DNA of 64,000 nucleotides from Chrysomallon squamiferum (lineage: Eukaryota; Mollusca; Gastropoda; Neomphalida; Peltospiridae), in the NCBI GenBank assembly GCA_012295275.1, contig CM022665.1:37878933-37942932 (forward strand), given 5' to 3'. Below are positions 14,654 through 59,787 of this stretch, in pieces. Below the pieces are notes generated by a model that searched no databases, was not told where the DNA came from, and saw only the letters and a list, made by a program, of their open reading frames with translations. Positions within the stretch are counted from its first letter, which is position 1, and every line of letters starts with the position of its first letter. A program made the position numbers and the translations under genes.

Positions 14654-14668
14654 TTTATCTAAGAGAAG

Positions 14669-30585
<15,917 letters not shown>

Positions 30586-37604: not shown

Positions 37605-37763
37605 TCTTACGGCAGGACATTTCTGTCAGGCTTTTATAATCATCTCGTGGGAAGCAATTAGGAGAAGTATAAATTATATTAGCCTCCGCTGTGTTCAAGT
37701 GTTTGTTCTTGATCGAACTGTGGACTAACATTGCTCGTCTTGCACTGTGAGGATCTGAGACAG
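37605..37763 (+). promoter_or_regulatory. EHL-A core promoter and non-coding first exon
   Basis: A TATAAAT box at 37668-37674 is followed by a less AT-rich leader that ends with CTGAGACAG and the donor GTCAGT at 37764. This places a start near 37698 and a first exon of about 66 nt. The leader carries no ATG in a coding context. Its near-perfect counterpart lies upstream of EHL-B on the opposite strand. A 31-nt poly(A) tract at 37558-37588 interrupts the sequence just upstream of the shared promoter. Confidence 0.65.
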
Positions 37764-37827
37764 GTCAGTTTGTACACTCCTTAGTGAAGTGTTTGAAAAT
37801 AACTTTCTTTCTCTTCAGTTTTTGTTT
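37635..37827 (+). repeat. 193-bp perfect inverted repeat, arm A
   Basis: Base-by-base comparison with the reverse complement of 59565-59757 gives 193 of 193 identical positions and no gap. Looser similarity runs about 30 bp further upstream. The arm spans the TATA box, exon 1, the donor and 64 bp of intron 1 of EHL-A. Confidence 0.97.
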
Positions 37828-40346: not shown

Positions 40347-40415
40347 TGACAATTTCTTTCTTCTGTGATGTAACATACGAACAAAAAATAGAAATACCTG
40401 TTCTCTTTTTCTCTT
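40347..40415 (+). promoter_or_regulatory. Intronic block shared by EHL-A and EHL-B (upstream block, copy A)
   Basis: Contains CATGACAATT then AAAAAATAGAAATACC and TGTTCTCTTTTT. The reverse complement of 56636-56700 has the same elements in the same order, with small gaps. A regulatory role is inferred from survival in two diverged introns. Confidence 0.45.
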
Positions 40416-41180
40416 TGTTGTCTACGACGATAAGGTTAAACAAATATATCTAATTACTCGTTTAAACATAAAAAAAATTTTTTTTTTTTAAATTAAAAAA
40501 ATTAAAAATGTCAGTATTCATTATGAATGTAGATTTCCCTTTTCAGCAACTGCATTCCTGATATAAATTCTATGGTATTCATTTCTACCGTGATGTATTG
40601 TATTCTTAAAAGTTAAGAATTTTAAAGAGAATTCTTATAGACCAAAATCATTGTTATTTAATTGTTTTTCTTCTAAAAACAGAATTTTAAAATTGAAATG
40701 TCAAACTGACCTGAACAGCTGAAATGTTTGGAATGTTAAAGACATTTACCTATTCTAAACATAAATGTCTATATCGTGTACTGTCGTAATACCAAAGATA
40801 CTAAATAAAATATAAAAGTATTTTGAATTACTTTAATTAAAAAAAAAAAAAAATTAAAAAGGGAAGAGAGAATATTAGATAATATTTTGGGTAAGCGTGT
40901 GTATATGTATGATAAAACTTCAGCTTATTGACATTAAAGCCGTATCTAACATTTTTTTTCCACTTCACTTTGAAACATTTGTTTTGTTACGTTATTTAAA
41001 CTTACTACAATAGTGGTGCAGAACAACATGACTTTCCCGCCAGTTAATGAAACAATTTCAAATATGTATATATGTATCTGTTTACCAAGTACATCATGAC
41101 TCTTCTCACAATTGAATGTTTGGGGAAACCTACATGCCTACACGGAAGAGCTATGTAATCTTTTTCTTCTTTTAATACAA

Positions 41181-41360
41181 AGTTATCTCTAAGAGCAGAC
41201 TAATCCATTTTTAATACATTCTGAAGACGAGTGTGAATAAAGAAATAACGATTTTCCAAATCTTGATTAAAACAAACGGTCATCTGGTATACTGTCAAGG
41301 ATATCAAAATTTCTAACCACGCCAGTTTTGCTTTGAGGTTTTTTCTTTTTCTTCTTTTTT
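41181..41360 (+). promoter_or_regulatory. Intronic block shared by EHL-A and EHL-B (main block, copy A)
   Basis: The first ~77 bp (AGTTATCTCTAAG, GCAGAC, AATCC, ATTCTGAAG, AGAAATAACGATT) matches the reverse complement of 55963-56040 at roughly 80%. Weaker similarity continues through GGTCAT and a T-rich end. It sits about 485 bp before exon 2, and the counterpart about 680 bp before EHL-B exon 2. A possible transcriptional enhancer, by inference. Confidence 0.55.
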
Positions 41361-41901
41361 CTCACCCACCCTATTGAAGTTGACAATGCGACGACTTCTA
41401 GCAATAAAGTATTTGTTTATTATGTTGTATTTTGATTAACGTTTTTAAAATAATCAATGTAATTTGTTATTCCTATTGACCTACGCATCCAATGAAAAGA
41501 TCTTTTTTGTTGAAAACTTCCTTGATGTTCTATTTGAGCTCACTGTATAGTTTGTAAAGGCCCATAGGAATAGGTCAGTCGGTTGGTTGATGGTTAAAAT
41601 AAATATAAAAATGCATCGTCTGCAACATATGCAGTCTAGTTAAAGAAGTTTATGGTGCAATAAAAAGTAGACTATGAGTATTTTTGCTTATGCTTAATTT
41701 ATGACGTGTGCAATTTCTTAAGAATTAGAACAGGTACAAAAAAGTATGTACAGATAAGTAGTATTTTGTGACTTGTGAAATAATATTAACAGATGTGTAT
41801 ATTATACATATTTCATTTATTTGTTACTAATGTTTTTGTTACAGAATACAACACATCAGTGGTGATAACTGGAGAATTTAACAAAAATAAAAAATTTAAA
41901 G

Positions 41902-43523
41902 ATGAATAGATCACCAACAGTGAGTATCAAATACTTATTATTTTAAGTTTCGGAAATTATTTCTAGCCATGTTCTTTTTCATAATAGTGAAATAAACAAT
42001 TGAGGGGGGGGGGCGAATAATAAAAATGTAAAGTTACAAATTTTCGTTTAAAAACAGTAAAATACATTAACAGTCTGCTATGAGCAACTATTTCATGTCA
42101 CACTTTTATATCGGACTTCTAATAACTAATTATAAATGAATATATGTGTATTTTCACGATAACCAGATTAGCTGCATGTGTATGCTACATCTACCAGTGG
42201 GTAGTTAATAGTTTACTACATTTTTTGTTTTTGTTTTTTTTTTTTTAATTAAATATTCATTTCTTTCATTTCCTACAATTTACGGTTCGATGTTTCACGT
42301 AGGCATTAATCTGTATTTCAAGAATAAAGAACATAACAATTTCTAAATTATTAATTAACTCAAAACAAGAAGAAGATGATAGAAGAAGAGAGAAAAAAAA
42401 AAAAAAAAAATAAGTAAATGATAATTAAAAGAAGAAAACAAAAACAACAAAAATTATTATACGAAACCAAATAACTATATTGATTTTAAACAGTTCAGCT
42501 ATATTATTACTTTAATTTAAAAATTGGTTAAATCGATTTTCATTCTATATCTCTTTAAATGAAATTGTGTTTATTTATTACCGTCCTAGCCATTTTACTT
42601 ATTTCGCCAGTACTGCAATACCAACTCGAGTGAGCATTGTCAGATAATATCTCTATATAATAAAAACAATTTATAACAGAAAATATTATTTTGTATTTCA
42701 GATTATACATTCTATCTTTCTGATGATCTTGGCATTACAAATGAGTATTACATTAGTGAACTCCCAAGCTGGTCCATGTGATCCAAACATTGCTGAAATG
42801 TCTTGTCTGTTAGGTTGTTTGTACTGTTTCGAAACTTTTGGCGCAGAAGTGTATGACACGGCCGCTTGTTGCACAGACTGCGTAATAACGCAAAGGGAGA
42901 TAATCGATTTAGGACCAAGCAAATGTTCGGAAAAGTATTTACGTCAAAGCTGGTTGAGGCGTCGTGGGTGAGTACGTAATTAATAAACTGCAGATGTTAA
43001 AGGTTTTAAAAACGACTTTAAATTTGATGTGCCGTGTTCGATTTTAAATTTGAATGCGCTACAAAAATTTATAATTCTATTCAGATAGAATATGAAGTCC
43101 TATGATAATTTTTTTTTTAATTGATTTATTTGTTTGTTTGTTTATTATTATTATTATTATTCGTTTGTTAATTAAACAGTGATTTAATTATTAAAATTTA
43201 TTATGAAGAGAGGGAGAGAGAGAATGTGTTTAATTTATTATGAAAAACGTATGTACATATTGCTTCAGAATTTGGACACTTCTATTTATTTATTTTAAAG
43301 CATAAAATTTGGTTTACAATACAGTACAGACGAATTAATGAATGTTGAATGATAGACTGACACAAAGTGAAAGCGAAAAGAAAAAAATAATTATATATAA
43401 AAAAATAAAATTAAAAAATAAAATAAAATGAAACATTTATTCTCTGTAATTTACCTGAACGACTTATATTACTGAGCAGAAATAACTTTCGTTTCTTTTT
43501 TTTTCTCCAGGTTTCTAACTTAA
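41902..43523 (+). CDS. Eclosion-hormone-like secreted prohormone, paralog A (EHL-A)
   Basis: Coding exons 41902-41919, 42702-42967 and 43511-43523 give 98 aa. The first coding exon (acceptor at 41844, exon from 41845) carries 5'UTR plus six codons, MNRSPT. Residues 7-27 are a hydrophobic signal peptide ending LVNSQAGPC; cleavage near S27/Q28 would leave an N-terminal Gln that could cyclise. Eight cysteines lie at 32, 41, 45, 48, 62, 63, 66 and 81. The core C-x3-C-x2-C-x13-C-x3-C-x14-C resembles arthropod eclosion hormone (C-x3-C-x2-C-x12-C-x3-C-x10-C), with one extra cysteine before the core and one directly after its fourth cysteine. CHH/ITP peptides lack the C-x3-C-x2-C opening. The tail is basic (WLRRRGFLT) without an amidation signal. 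Eclosion hormone is a neuropeptide acting on a receptor guanylyl cyclase in insects; the function here is inferred by family only. AATAAA at 43867 may end the transcript. Confidence 0.8.
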
Positions 43524-46749: not shown

Positions 46750-49645
46750 TTAATTAATTTCAGAAAGCTTCTTTTTCAGTCCTGTCCATTCCAGAGTTTC
46801 TTCATACAACTTGTCAATTATCTTTTCATCTTTTGTGTTCTCTTCAAATTTCACTTCTTGACAATCCCTGGATTGAAGAACATGATTTACAGTTAATAAG
46901 ATAACATAAAGCTAAAGAAATAGAGTCTTGTAAACTGATTTAAGAGAATTTTCAGATTTTATCAATAGCCTAAGTAAATATTCATACTGGTAACAACTAC
47001 ATAGAGCAAAATAAAAATTCAGAAGTTTCCATGTCTTGAGATACTTATACTTGTACACACTATAAGTCTTTCATATCTCACATTTTGTTTTTTGAAAATG
47101 TAAAGAATTTGCAATAGAGTTTTATAGGCTTACAATATTGCAAGTTGATGATTCATTTACTCAGCATATCTGGTTATTTTTTCAAGAGAAAAAAAAAAAA
47201 TGAAAATACAATAACTGCCTCCATACATTTCCAAGATAATAATATACTTTATTACTAGAAAAAGTTTGCTGTCAAGGAACAAACAAATTAGCCATATAAA
47301 GAGTATGTATACTAATGGATCGAAACACCAGTTATACACTGGAAAAATAAACTCACTTGTAACGTTTGCCAGTGACACCTTCCAATTTCTCATCCACTGC
47401 TGCATAAATAGTTGTGTTTGCTCCATCTTTGGGGGTCTTCAGCATGAACCACACAGGAAGACCAAGACTAAGTCGAAGGAATGAACTGGTTTTCATTGGA
47501 AGATGTCTAAGACCAGGTGAGTTGACAATCCCAGGGTTCACACTGACAACAGTAACTTTTGTATCTGGAGAAAATTGAAACGAAAAAAAATGGACACATG
47601 TTATTTCTTTGGTTAAAGATCTTTTAAATATATATATATAGTAATACTAACAGGTTATTTCTTCAAAAATAATTCTTCAAAAATAGTAAACAAAACCTAG
47701 AAAATATCAAGAGATGTACACCTTTCAAAGCATTTAATTATAATACAGGATGTCACAGTACCAATGGACTATTTTTAACATACGTATCAGAAGTTGTAAA
47801 ATATTTTTAAACCAGGTGCAAATATTCTGAAATATAAGTACAGGATTTTTTTATTTAGAAAAATGTTAAGAATACAGTTCATCATAAAATATCCTAAAAA
47901 GGCTAAAACCTTTTATGTTCTGAATATATATATAATAATTATAACAGTAACAGAGTAAATATAATAATAATACTAACAGTAACAGTAACATACATAAACT
48001 AGACATAAAATAGATATAATAAGTGGGAATATAGATAAAATAAATATAATGATAATAAACAACCATCTTCAGTCCAAAAATTAAAATCAATTACTTTTAA
48101 GCCTCTCTGCTAATTTGATGGTGTACAGATCAACAGCTAGTTTGCTTTGCGCATAGGCCTGTCCTGGTGAATAGTCTTCTTTCATGTTGATATCATCAAA
48201 ATGGATTTTTCCAAGATTGCTTGCTGAGGCCGAGGTGTTAACAATTCTAGCTGAACCTGAAGCCTTCAACAAGTCTAACAGTAGCTCAGTCAAAAGAAAA
48301 GTACCTGCAAAAAGTTAAATATCTTAATGTTATCATAATGAAATAATACTGAATATAGGTTTGGCTTAAAAAAAAATTAAAGGAAAAAGGACTAGAAAGT
48401 GGAAAATAAAATATAAATATAAATACAAACTGAATCTGAAATATAGAAGTCTACAACTTAATAAAATGATAAATAAAAAAAAAAAAATTAAAAAAAATGT
48501 ATGCCATAATGAGATATATAATGTTTTCATTTAAAACACTTTAGAAAATATATATATAAAAAAATCAAGATAATAATAAAATTAAACATCAAAAAAATAT
48601 ATACATTGAATAAAAAGAAATAATAATAATCTTTATCTTTAATTATTTATGATGCTATGACATCACACTCCAAATACTAAAGTACAGTTAATTCACTGAT
48701 GTTTAACATACCAAGATAATTAACACCAAACTGCCTTTCAAATTTATCCTTAGTTTCATCTTCAGGGCACATCATCACACCAGCATTATTTATAAGTATA
48801 TCTAGTTTTTCTTCCTCTGCAATAAATACATATGACTTTTATAAGTTAGTAACTCAAGTAAAATAAAAAATTATTTAAATTCAGTTTTTAACAAATACTA
48901 AAGTAAATACTAGAATTCATTTTGAAACAAATAATGCATAATAAATAATTCCCCAGTATGAGTTAAGTACAAATGCATTAAAAAAATATATATATATATT
49001 TTTTATTTGTCAGCAATATCATCCATTTCTATCCATCTGTTAATATAAATACATTTTTAAAGTATAGAATTAAACATTAAACAGTACTAACTTTTCTTGA
49101 AATTTTCCACAAACTCTCGTATTGACTTAAAAGATCCAAGATCACATTTCATAAAAATGACATTCATGTTTTCTGTGGTTTTCCGAATTTCCTCTTCAGC
49201 TTCCTTTCCTTTCTGTTCATCTCTACATACAAGAAACACTCTGGCACCTATATAAAAAACATTTGGCACCATAATATCACATAATGACACTATACTAGTA
49301 AATGGTTAGCATTAACTAACATACACAAAAGATGAATGTGGAAATTCTTTTTCTTAATACATTTTAAAAAATATTTATAAAATCTTATAAATAAAGATCA
49401 GTGAAAATAAATAAAAATAAATAGAAGCTCTATCCTTCTTTTAACTATTTAGTGTTACAAATTATGTTATGATCCTGAAATTGCATCAACAGTGAAATCA
49501 AGTAAATCAAAATGTATGCCACTACCATGTTATTAAGTAAATTGCAGTTAAAAATGAATATTCTTATTAACACTGTGACACATCTATTTCGATTTAAAAT
49601 TATAAATCTAAAATTATTTGGAATTTAAATTGAATATACACTTCA

Positions 49646-49677
<32 letters not shown>

Positions 49678-50491
49678 TAATTTATACCTCTTGTTGCTAA
49701 GTCAGTTGCAACAGCCAGTCCTATACCAGAGTTAGCACCAGTTACAATTACAGTTTTGCCTTTTAGTTTTGAGGTGCCAATGTACTGTGGGCCACGGAAC
49801 CATTGTCTGCAAAGATGAAATATATTTAAAATAAAATTATATTTAACAATATATAATACTAAATTATAAAATAAACAATAAATGCTTTGGAATATCATAT
49901 TCATTTTAAAAACTTTCCTAATAAATTATGATACATTATGATTATGTATAAATGGAATTATTGTAATTTTTTGCCTTTTATTATTATTATTATATAACTT
50001 TCATTATAATTTTTATATTTTTTTGTTTGTTTTAAATATAAGAAAAATACTGTTATATTTATAACTATTAACTCACTGATACCAGTGATAAAAATGTTCC
50101 AGAAAAACAGAGCGCTAGGATGAGGCTGCAGAAAATATATATGCAGATTTGGGTGTGGTCATTATTTTATTTTATTCTGCTAATGCTGCATTTGCAACAT
50201 GTATTAATGATCATTAATAGTTATATTAAAATTCTGAACTTTTTTTAATCAACTACATTATGTATCTTTTGGTGAAACTTATTATAGGGTATTTTAATAT
50301 CTGGGGTTTTATAAAACCGGTTACATCTATTTTTACGAAATTAAGAGAGTAACGAAATAAAAGCGAGTCAAATTAATATATGTTAAATTTTACCTTAGTG
50401 CATACAGTACACCAGCTATTACAGCAATGCCAATTGGATACCAAGAACTAAAAATATTTGGCGGTTCGGGAAACATCATCGGAGATACCAT
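46750..50491 (-). CDS. Short-chain dehydrogenase, retinol dehydrogenase 11/12/13-like
   Basis: Seven exons in transcription order: 50491-50394, 49806-49688, 49247-49092, 48816-48712, 48304-48095, 47564-47357, 46867-46750. They join to 1014 nt and 337 aa, the usual length for RDH11-14. Residues about 17-33 are a hydrophobic N-terminal anchor, as in membrane-bound RDHs. TGANSGIG (55-62) is the dinucleotide loop, NNAG is at 134-137, and the catalytic Tyr and Lys are Y210 and K214 in [24 protein letters not shown] closely follows RDH13. At the place of the catalytic Ser (Ser175 in human RDH12, 25 residues before the Tyr) this protein has Ala185 in VNTSASAS. RDHs interconvert retinoids or lipid aldehydes and alcohols with NADP(H); the substrate here is unknown. 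The gene lies between the two EHL genes. Which RDH ortholog it is cannot be settled by eye. Confidence 0.93.
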
Positions 50492-53390: not shown

Positions 53391-53985
53391 TTATGGTAAT
53401 AGCTCACTTCTGACTGAAATTATTTTAAAATATACTTGCCCATGACTCTTCAGCCAGCTCTTGCGTAAATACTTTTCAGAACACGTCTCTGGTCCAATAT
53501 CAATAATATCTTTTTGAGTCAGTATGCAGTCGGCGCAGCATGCAGCCGTGTCGTAGACGTCGCCACCAAAAGATTCGAAACACGACAGACAACCCATGAG
53601 GCAACTCATTTTGGCACGCTTCGGGTTGCACGGACCTCCTTGTGAACTCACTAAGGTTATTATCATTTGTAATGTGAAGACCGTTAAAATGAAGGAATGT
53701 CTGACCTGAAATACGTAAAGAAAATATTTTTATTTCTATCATACAAGATGGCTTTATTACAAAGCATTGGCTTTTAATGCCAGCGTTGCACACACACACA
53801 CTTTCAACATACACACACTTTCACACACACACACACACATAGTGATTTCCATTTTTCATAATTGAATGTTGTAATAAATATAAACATCACTGATATGTCA
53901 AATATCATTTGTTCTGGATATAGATATCGGGCAAAAAGTATAAAATAAATCAAACATTTAGATAATATAAATATCTATAATTTTA

Positions 53986-54019
<34 letters not shown>

Positions 54020-55128
54020 AAATAAATAAATATTAATACTAATTATAATCATCATTATCATCATAATAATCATCAAAATAATAATTAAAAAATCCCACAA
54101 CAAACCCAACCAAAAAAAAAAAAAAAAAAATAATTCCAAATGTATCTTTATTTATTATTATTCTTTTACAGTAATAAACAGTTAAGAAACGTTACTGTTC
54201 TGGATTCTTCGAATACAAACTAATGTTAAAGACAAACCCCCGGATAACTGTAAATTACACCTTTTATGTTTTGTTTTTTTTTATTTGATTTTTTCTCTTC
54301 GTTTCGAGTTAATAAATAATTCAGAACTGTGCTGTTATTCTTAAAAGACAAATTAATGTCAAACTGAAACTCGGAATTGTAAATTGCAGGAAATGAAAGA
54401 AATGAATATTTTGGTAAACTGCAACAATCGGTATTAACCACTCAGGTGTTCAACATAAAAAACATGCACGCACACACACGGATATAAATCGATGCATGCA
54501 CGCACATTCGCACACACCCACTTACACCTAGCTAATTAACCAGTTGTAGTAAAAAACAAGAAACGTATTCTCATATAACGGCATCGTTAATATTCCTCGT
54601 CTATCTTCTTCATCGTCACCATTATTTTCATTGATTAATGTTGTTAGTTTTAGCCACATCTGACTATCAACCACTAAAATATGCGCGTTTTAGTCTTTTG
54701 GAAAGCGTGTGTGAAAGAGTTTTTCAATAACCAAACAGAGAAAATGCTCTAAATAAATGTCACACGATACTGTCATAACAGAATACAAGACTCTTCAAAA
54801 AGATTTTCATAAAACCTGAAAGTCAATTTGGAATATCTATATTTTCATTTTACGCTTTTTTATTATTTTCTTTCTTTCTTTCTTTCTTTTTTTTTCTTTC
54901 TTTTTTTTTTTTTTTTTTTAATTTTAATTTTAATTTTTTTTTATCCTGTAACAGATGTTTTCAACGTTAAATATGAAATTAAATTTATTTCTCTCATCTA
55001 TCAATAACTATCAGATGTTTTGTTTTCCTTTGGGAATTTCTCTGACATTCAGACCAGTGTTTTAAAATAATAATTAAAAAAAACAAAACAACAAGTACAC
55101 GGAAACTTACCGACTGAGATTTAGTCAT
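53391..55128 (-). CDS. Eclosion-hormone-like secreted prohormone, paralog B (EHL-B)
   Basis: Coding exons 55128-55111 (MTKSQS; the exon starts at 55187 with 5'UTR) and 53705 downwards. Exon 1 codes for six residues, exactly as in EHL-A, and the intron phase is the same. The signal peptide ends LVSSQGGPC. All eight cysteines fall at the same positions (32, 41, 45, 48, 62, 63, 66, 81) with no gap against EHL-A. From residue 30 to 95, 45 of 66 residues agree. At the place of EHL-A's last donor (TGG/GTGAGT) this gene has TGG/GCAAGT. Either a GC-AG intron is used, with a last exon I cannot identify, or the frame runs on to TAA at 53391, giving 110 aa with a different tail. The stated end assumes read-through. 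A separate gene rather than a pseudogene: no stop, and all cysteines and splice phases are kept. Confidence 0.77.
53980..54015. repeat. (AT)n microsatellite in EHL-B
   Basis: About 14 AT units inside the intron between the two EHL-B coding exons; (AC)n runs lie nearby at about 53790-53840. Confidence 0.9.
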
Positions 55129-55505: not shown

Positions 55506-55869
55506 ATTTATTTAATCATCCATAAACTCATTAACCCAGAAATATATTTAGGTCAGGTTATTCTATTTTGCTTAAACATACTGACTGTCAACTCAATATT
55601 ACGATTAAACTTGATTTTGAAAAGTGAATCTCTTTCAAGTTTTTTAAAATTTTATTTCCGTGACCAAAATAAACAGGAAGTTTCCTAAAGTAGGATGATC
55701 TTTTCATCTTTGTGGTGAATGTGTGGGTCAATAAAGAACAAAAAAACCCACAAAAAGAACCTACATTGATTATTTTAAAACTCTTAACCAAAATACAGAT
55801 GAACAAATACTCCATTGTTAAAAGCTCTAACATTGCCTATTTGATTCGTGATTAAAATAACAGAACAAG

Positions 55870-56040
55870 AAAAAGCCCCAAGCAAACCTAGCCAGTTTTA
55901 CGCCGTATACGTTTTGCTGTCTTTGTCGGTAATTCAACATGACCCTTTGCTTTTAGCACAGTTTTGACAATCGTTATTTCTTGATGCACTTTCACCTTCA
56001 GAATATATTCAAAACGGATTTGTCTGCACTTAGAGATAAC
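55870..56040 (-). promoter_or_regulatory. Intronic block shared by EHL-B and EHL-A (main block, copy B)
   Basis: The reverse complement aligns with 41181-41360, best over 55963-56040 (about 80% by eye). Order and orientation relative to exons 1 and 2 agree with copy A, so it descends from the same inverted duplication. A regulatory role is inferred. Confidence 0.55.
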
Positions 56041-56635
56041 TCTTCTTTCATTAAAAACGCCGATAGCTCTCTATATAGCCTGTTGGTTACTCTTTGCCTA
56101 GAAATCTACGCTGCTGTAGGTATCGTGTTATTTCAATACCAAACATAATATTCGGAACCAAATAATAACAGATAGACTGTCAGAATTAATAATATATTCA
56201 CAAAAGACGCGATAATTTTTCAAATCTGAGTACAGCAACAACAATAACAACAACAACAATAGTAATGAACAAACAAAAATAAACGAATAACAACAACAAC
56301 AAAAACTCTGTCCAAAGCAGTAATTAATATAATTAATATAAATGAAACTATATTTAAAAACACAACTCCACAAGCAAATTCCTTTTTTTTACAACTATGA
56401 ATGTATGAAATTTTTTTTTTTTTTTTTTTTTTATGAAATTCCTGTCTGTAAAAAATCTGTAGTTCACAGAATGTATAAATCAGGAATGCAGTTGATAAAT
56501 ACGCAAATCCACTTTCATAATTAATATTGACATTTTTAAAATTAAAAAAAACCCTCAAAAAAAAAAAAAAACCAAAAAAAAAATTTTAAAAAACAACAAC
56601 GAGTAATTAGATATATTTGTTTGACATTATAACGG

Positions 56636-56700
56636 AAAAAAAGAGAACAAAAGGTATTTCTATTTTTTTATAATGCAGAGCAGTGAAGAATGTCATGTAA
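56636..56700 (-). promoter_or_regulatory. Intronic block shared by EHL-B and EHL-A (upstream block, copy B)
   Basis: Read on minus, it carries CATGACATTCTT, then AAAAAAATAGAAATACC and TGTTCTCTTTTT, matching 40347-40415 with small gaps. It is collinear with the main shared block. Confidence 0.42.
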
Positions 56701-59564: not shown

Positions 59565-59757
59565 AAACAAAAACTGAAGAGAAAGAAAGTTATTTTCAAA
59601 CACTTCACTAAGGAGTGTACAAACTGACCTGTCTCAGATCCTCACAGTGCAAGACGAGCAATGTTAGTCCACAGTTCGATCAAGAACAAACACTTGAACA
59701 CAGCGGAGGCTAATATAATTTATACTTCTCCTAATTGCTTCCCACGAGATGATTATA
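59565..59757 (-). repeat. 193-bp perfect inverted repeat, arm B
   Basis: Its reverse complement is identical at all 193 positions to 37635-37827. The identity stops abruptly on the intron side (arm A continues CAATT, arm B GGGTT) and fades over about 30 bp on the upstream side. Confidence 0.97.
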
Positions 59758-59787
59758 CCAGTTTACTAGAGATGTCCCGCCTGCGAC
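59629..59787 (-). promoter_or_regulatory. EHL-B core promoter and non-coding first exon
   Basis: On the minus strand TATAAAT lies at 59724-59718. A start is expected near 59694, with exon 1 ending at 59629 (GAGACAG, donor GTCAGT). It is identical to the EHL-A core promoter. Confidence 0.65.

Follow-up and report, generated by a model that had tools for sequence, protein, structure and literature searches.

The question raised by this locus is how two short stretches of non-coding DNA, lying in inverted orientation 21.7 kb apart, come to be identical at every base when the genes that they open have diverged far in their coding parts. The window analysed here—the whole stretch of 64,000 bases with 0 N, from contig C1 at 37.88-37.94 Mb—contains two convergent genes for small cysteine-rich peptides, gene A on the forward and gene B on the reverse strand, the peptides of both being probably secreted, and the two identical arms form the outer 5' ends of this pair. 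The main features are as follows:

37635..37827 (+): arm A of the tract, with a TATA box, a putative 5'UTR exon 1, a donor-like site and 64 bp of putative intron; 100% identical to arm B over 193 bp; 2 places in the genome
59565..59757 (-): arm B of the tract; 100% identical to arm A over 193 bp; 2 places in the genome
42702..42968 (+): exon 2 of gene A, with a putative signal-peptide end and an eight-cysteine peptide, followed by a donor (GG/GTGAGT) or a stop (GGG TGA)
53439..53705 (-): exon 2 of gene B, with the same peptide, its mature part 68% identical, followed by GG/GCAAGT (a possible GC donor) or by 15 more codons to a stop (both exons read from the sequence alone)

The sequence-only reading had described a 193-bp inverted repeat of 100% identity between paralogs with peptides about 68% identical, and both halves of that description hold. 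Self-BLAST aligned arm A (37635-37827, +) with arm B (59757-59565, -) at 193/193 bases and 0 gaps, the base-by-base alignment placed the edges of identity at the same positions (37635-37827 / 59565-59757), and the mature peptides share 45 of 66 residues (68%), with 57 of 89 shared over the full frame of exon 2. The arm pair sits within a 287-nt inverted repeat of 85% identity and, among the best 150 matches by score in the self-BLAST of the window, it reaches 357 bits, the next ones being simple repeats with at most 159 bits and the exon-2 pair having 104 bits. With 0 differences in 193 bases, the divergence of the tract is below 1.54% at 95%. In the 404.6-Mb assembly of 22 contigs, the tract has 2 matches, both in the window (2 candidates, 2 scored); it should be noted that this search scores the best candidates, that repeat counts are lower bounds and that a strongly diverged third promoter could escape it. 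A repeat family or a transposable element as the origin of the tract was rejected, the genome search finding it in 2 places (2/2 candidates). A structured RNA as its nature was rejected as well, Rfam giving 0 matches at gathering scores over 36000-61000 and no unusual RNA structure being seen in the tract, with fold z-scores near zero (-0.22 and -0.52).

Concerning the anatomy of the tract, the TATA box TATAAATTA (37668-37676), the donor-like GTCAGT (37764-37769) and the 64 bases from that site to the end of the tract (37764-37827) were all found, in line with the earlier claim of a TATA box, exon 1, donor and 64 bp of intron; the exon 1, the donor and the intron of that claim are, however, better called putative, and an acceptor-like TTTCTTTCTCTTCAG with its last base at 37818 is also present inside the tract. 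The 3' end of the tract is pyrimidine-rich and intron-like. The tract contains 0 ATG, so that an exon 1 in it would be untranslated. It is read here as a core promoter with a putative 5'UTR exon 1 and the putative start of an intron. As a side observation, the acceptor-like polypyrimidine-CAG at 37811-37818 would permit a 55-nt intron, which would change the layout of exon 1 and intron given earlier.

The rest of the two genes bears on the age of their duplication. Besides exon 2, three intron blocks were aligned between them, the other rows of the list of collinear blocks being short or of low complexity:

40383..40574 (+) / 56465-56668 (-): intron block 1, collinear and inverted, 68.5% identical
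41181..41461 (+) / 55762-56041 (-): intron block 2, collinear and inverted, 71% identical
42251..42403 (+) / 54262-54411 (-): intron block 3, collinear and inverted, 76% identical

Since the intron blocks and exon 2 are collinear, the genes were duplicated from the promoter to exon 2, and not the promoter alone. Intron block 2 occurs in 2 places in the genome (2/2 candidates) and, by this genome search, does not represent a repeat family. Exon 2 has kept 191 of 267 nucleotides (72%) between A and B, with a dN of 0.21 (0.20 for the mature part), a dS of about 1.59 (1.70 for the mature part)—an imprecise value, the silent sites being near saturation—and identity at 7 of 21 fourfold sites. The dN/dS of about 0.13 in exon 2 indicates that the peptide is under purifying selection. 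Judging from the silent sites (dS 1.59-1.70; fourfold 7/21), the duplication of genes A and B is old, and older than the tract, as is to be expected if the latter arose by ectopic gene conversion. A recent duplication of the whole, already dismissed in the sequence-only reading, is ruled out by the near-saturated synonymous sites (dS ~1.6).

In ungapped columns, the four other blocks (exon 2 and the three intron blocks) are 75-82% identical each and 78.6% when pooled (892 columns). When all 1,108 columns were permuted 20,000 times, the longest stretch of identity reached 74, against the 193 observed; the column script itself returned 213, because it carries on from the tract into matching columns of the adjacent block, and the real value is 193. 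The run of identity thus lies far beyond the rest of the paralog alignment (193 against a maximum of 74), which is a mark of an ectopic gene conversion tract. Separately, the non-coding intron block 3 (76%) is more alike than the coding exon 2 (72%), and it may be a conserved intronic regulatory element or an exon.

The tract has the following neighbour on its promoter side:

37611..37634 (+): flank of arm A on the promoter side, with weak homology to 59758-59781 (-), by anchored extension score against shuffles

Of the shuffled pairs, 0/200, 2/200 and 0/100 attained the anchored extension score that the promoter-side flanks have over 40, 60 and 100 bp, respectively; for the intron-side flanks, which are T-rich, the corresponding counts were 6/200, 12/200 and 0/100, an ambiguous result. 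The low-identity homology past the promoter-side edge suggests that the tract lies in its ancestral place.

Ectopic (interlocus) gene conversion over the tract, recent and perhaps recurrent, is on this comparison within one genome the probable explanation. Long ago, the ancestral gene, which encoded a small, secreted peptide rich in cysteine, would have been duplicated to give an inverted tail-to-tail pair; the introns and silent sites would have drifted apart, purifying selection would have slowed the change of the core promoter and putative 5'UTR exon, and this more slowly diverging promoter island would have stayed similar enough for recombination. Recently, and perhaps repeatedly, double-strand-break repair would then have copied a short stretch—193 bp or slightly more—between the genes. 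We infer that the mechanism was conversion, that earlier constraint explains the place of the island and that the tract serves as promoter and exon 1; constraint must contribute at the tract, since a promoter is probably there. Conversion is supported by the contrast between a tract with no difference in its 193 bases and a dS of more than 1.5, by the genome searches, which found two places for the tract and as many convincing peptide loci, by the sharp edges and by the pyrimidine-rich, intron-like end of the tract, which has no evident need for base-perfect constraint, while the promoter-side homology that persists at low identity outside the edge is as expected of conversion in place. The sequence-only reading had offered conversion or extreme constraint as candidate causes; this was the right pair, and the evidence just listed leans to the former. 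Most estimates for interlocus conversion tracts range from 50 to several hundred bp (PMC3924818), and the 193-bp length fits such measured tracts. Counting against conversion are the T-rich intron-side flank, whose homology does not stand out clearly from shuffles, and the separation of 21.7 kb, rather great for homology this short, although opsin genes about 24 kb apart are described as converting (PMC3924837). Opposite patterns are also on record: in the account of Arabidopsis halleri HMA4, the coding sequence is converted and the promoters are independent (PMC3749932), and the yeast ribosomal duplicates are described as having little sign of conversion in their regulatory regions (PMC3924837).

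Extreme purifying selection alone, i.e. an ultraconserved promoter/5'UTR element with nearly every base needed in both genes and no exchange between them, is an unlikely cause. It would agree with the TATA box, putative exon 1 and splice-like signals held by the tract, with a GC content of 37.8% in the tract against 31.3% in either 1-kb flank of arm A, and with the retention of three other non-coding blocks, on account of which the locus may hold conserved regulatory DNA. It would, however, have to hold divergence at each of the 193 positions, those in intron-like DNA included, about a hundred times below the synonymous level, and to do so with abrupt edges, while the peptide exon, itself under purifying selection, has kept 191 of 267 nucleotides; the ordinary RNA fold and the absence of Rfam matches mentioned above also speak against it.

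Sharp edges and complete identity, together with an intron-side flank lacking clear homology, could also come from a recent short duplication or promoter capture, in which a copied 193-bp segment was inserted in one gene and no homologous site was converted. This is very improbable in view of the low-identity homology that extends beyond the promoter-side edge, the collinearity of the tract with exon 2 and the intron blocks in both genes, the lack of an obvious target-site duplication at the aligned edges (by eye) and the lack of further copies in the genome (2/2 candidates). The least probable of the readings considered is an assembly or consensus artefact, by which arms differing by a few bases were merged in assembly or polishing: a 193-bp repeat does exceed the usual short read, but the assembly has 22 contigs for its 404.6 Mb, both arms lie on one contig with different flanks, there is no N in the window, and the anomaly would largely persist if the arms did differ at a few bases.

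Conversion of this kind is an already known process, with opsin introns, Caenorhabditis inverted repeats and Culex vitellogenin promoters as precedents, of which the present tract would be a clean example. In the human red/green (LW/MW) opsins, introns are described as homogenised by conversion and exon 5 as kept different by selection (PMC3924837). This tempers the earlier remark that it is unusual for paralogs to be more alike in non-coding than in coding DNA, since primate red/green opsin introns and exon 5 behave likewise and are explained in that account by conversion plus selection (PMC3924837). The likeness consists in two paralogs, those of the opsins being about 24 kb apart, in which functional coding DNA has diverged further than non-coding DNA. 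The opsin paralogs, however, arose about 30-40 My ago, resemble each other closely throughout and come with cross-species proof in that account; here the synonymous sites are nearly saturated, homogenisation is confined to the 5' end and one genome was compared. In Caenorhabditis inverted-repeat gene pairs, the intergenic arms are kept alike, the authors leaving open conversion or structural selection, and the pair CBG13231/CBG13232 is 100% identical over the first 297 nt and 59.6% overall (PMC1803023). These are also inverted paralogs with promoter-side sequence and 5' gene ends near 100% and the rest diverged, but the spacers reported between their arms are short (126 and 414 bp), in contrast to 21.7 kb between the outer ends of a convergent pair here. 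The conversion tracts described in Culex vitellogenin paralogs include 5' promoters and introns (PMC2875236) and so resemble the present case in covering promoter and intron DNA; unlike here, the paralogs that convert differ little over their whole length (97.0-98.1% identity in Cx. tarsalis). Finally, in the account of the 24-kb flip/flop region of Saccharomyces, the inverted repeats at its ends are continually homogenised and a crossover inverts the interval (PMC9731477); inverted repeats bound an interval in both cases (24 kb in yeast), the yeast repeats differing in being 4 kb long with whole genes and in having a documented inversion.

With regard to meaning, it is possible, though we put it forward tentatively, that recurrent promoter-limited conversion, favoured by selection, keeps both genes under one shared promoter, their expression being locked together as the hormones diverge. 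If that were true, conversion would act as a device of long-term co-regulation across more than 1 synonymous substitution per site. Confirmation across species would make the locus a compact case of a core promoter in concerted evolution after saturation of silent sites, and would suggest that constrained islands can remain competent for recombination long after duplicates otherwise stop exchanging. As a caution, promoter identity between paralogs can mislead the dating of duplications.

As far as the genes themselves are concerned, when the genome was searched in six frames with peptide A, 3 candidates were scored, namely genes A and B and a third (E 8.73; 36% across 36 residues; 2 stops) that is taken as noise, leaving 2 convincing loci. 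Exon 2 of gene B offers no start codon from which a full signal peptide could be read, and a small start-codon exon should therefore lie between the tract and exon 2; a scan of both genes for such an exon and for a third exon gave no convincing pair, so the models of A and B are incomplete as regards the start-codon exon. A conserved ATG stretch in intron block 1, at 40506-40540 (+) / 56535-56500 (-), reads ATGTCARTATTMATTATGAAW before GT, and it could be a start-codon exon giving an in-phase signal peptide, with no conserved acceptor ahead of it by eye. The GG/GCAAGT near 53440 (-), at the end of exon 2 of gene B, would be a GC-AG donor if both genes splice there; alternatively, exon 2 may be terminal in both, with the TGA stop in A and the 15 further codons in B.

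Six of the eight cysteines of the peptides follow the pattern C-x3-C-x2-C-x13-C-x3-C-x14-C, the other two being extra. Their order and spacing resemble those of the Manduca eclosion hormone, whose spacings are x3, x2, x12, x3 and x10. Against this single sequence, the two peptides scored 6.3 and 6.4 bits in phmmer, and peptide A reached E 0.002 in BLAST. Pfam assigned neither peptide to a family, PF04736 included (cut-off E 10, with HMMER filters dropping most matches above ~0.1), a search of a protein collection with peptide A and one of the PDB with peptide B returned 0 candidates each, and AlphaFold, given the alignment of the two sequences, predicted helices throughout, at a confidence too low for the model to be of use (mean pLDDT 49.6). 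The term eclosion-hormone-like is accordingly to be taken as a lead only. Eclosion hormone has been reported in molluscs and other lophotrochozoans (PMC6660194, PMC8398477) and in echinoderms (PMC5627052), according to those accounts.

Two further features complete the picture of the window, the first of them lying between genes A and B:

47356..49925 (-): short-chain-dehydrogenase-like exons, from open frames with TGANSGIG and NNAG motifs

The family name is the one that these motifs suggest. Pfam found nothing in the two longest open frames at the start of the window. A multi-exon gene at 14663-30582 (+) shows motifs of biotin carboxylase and of carboxyltransferase in its frames, together with the biotinyl AMKM, and reads as a probable pyruvate carboxylase.
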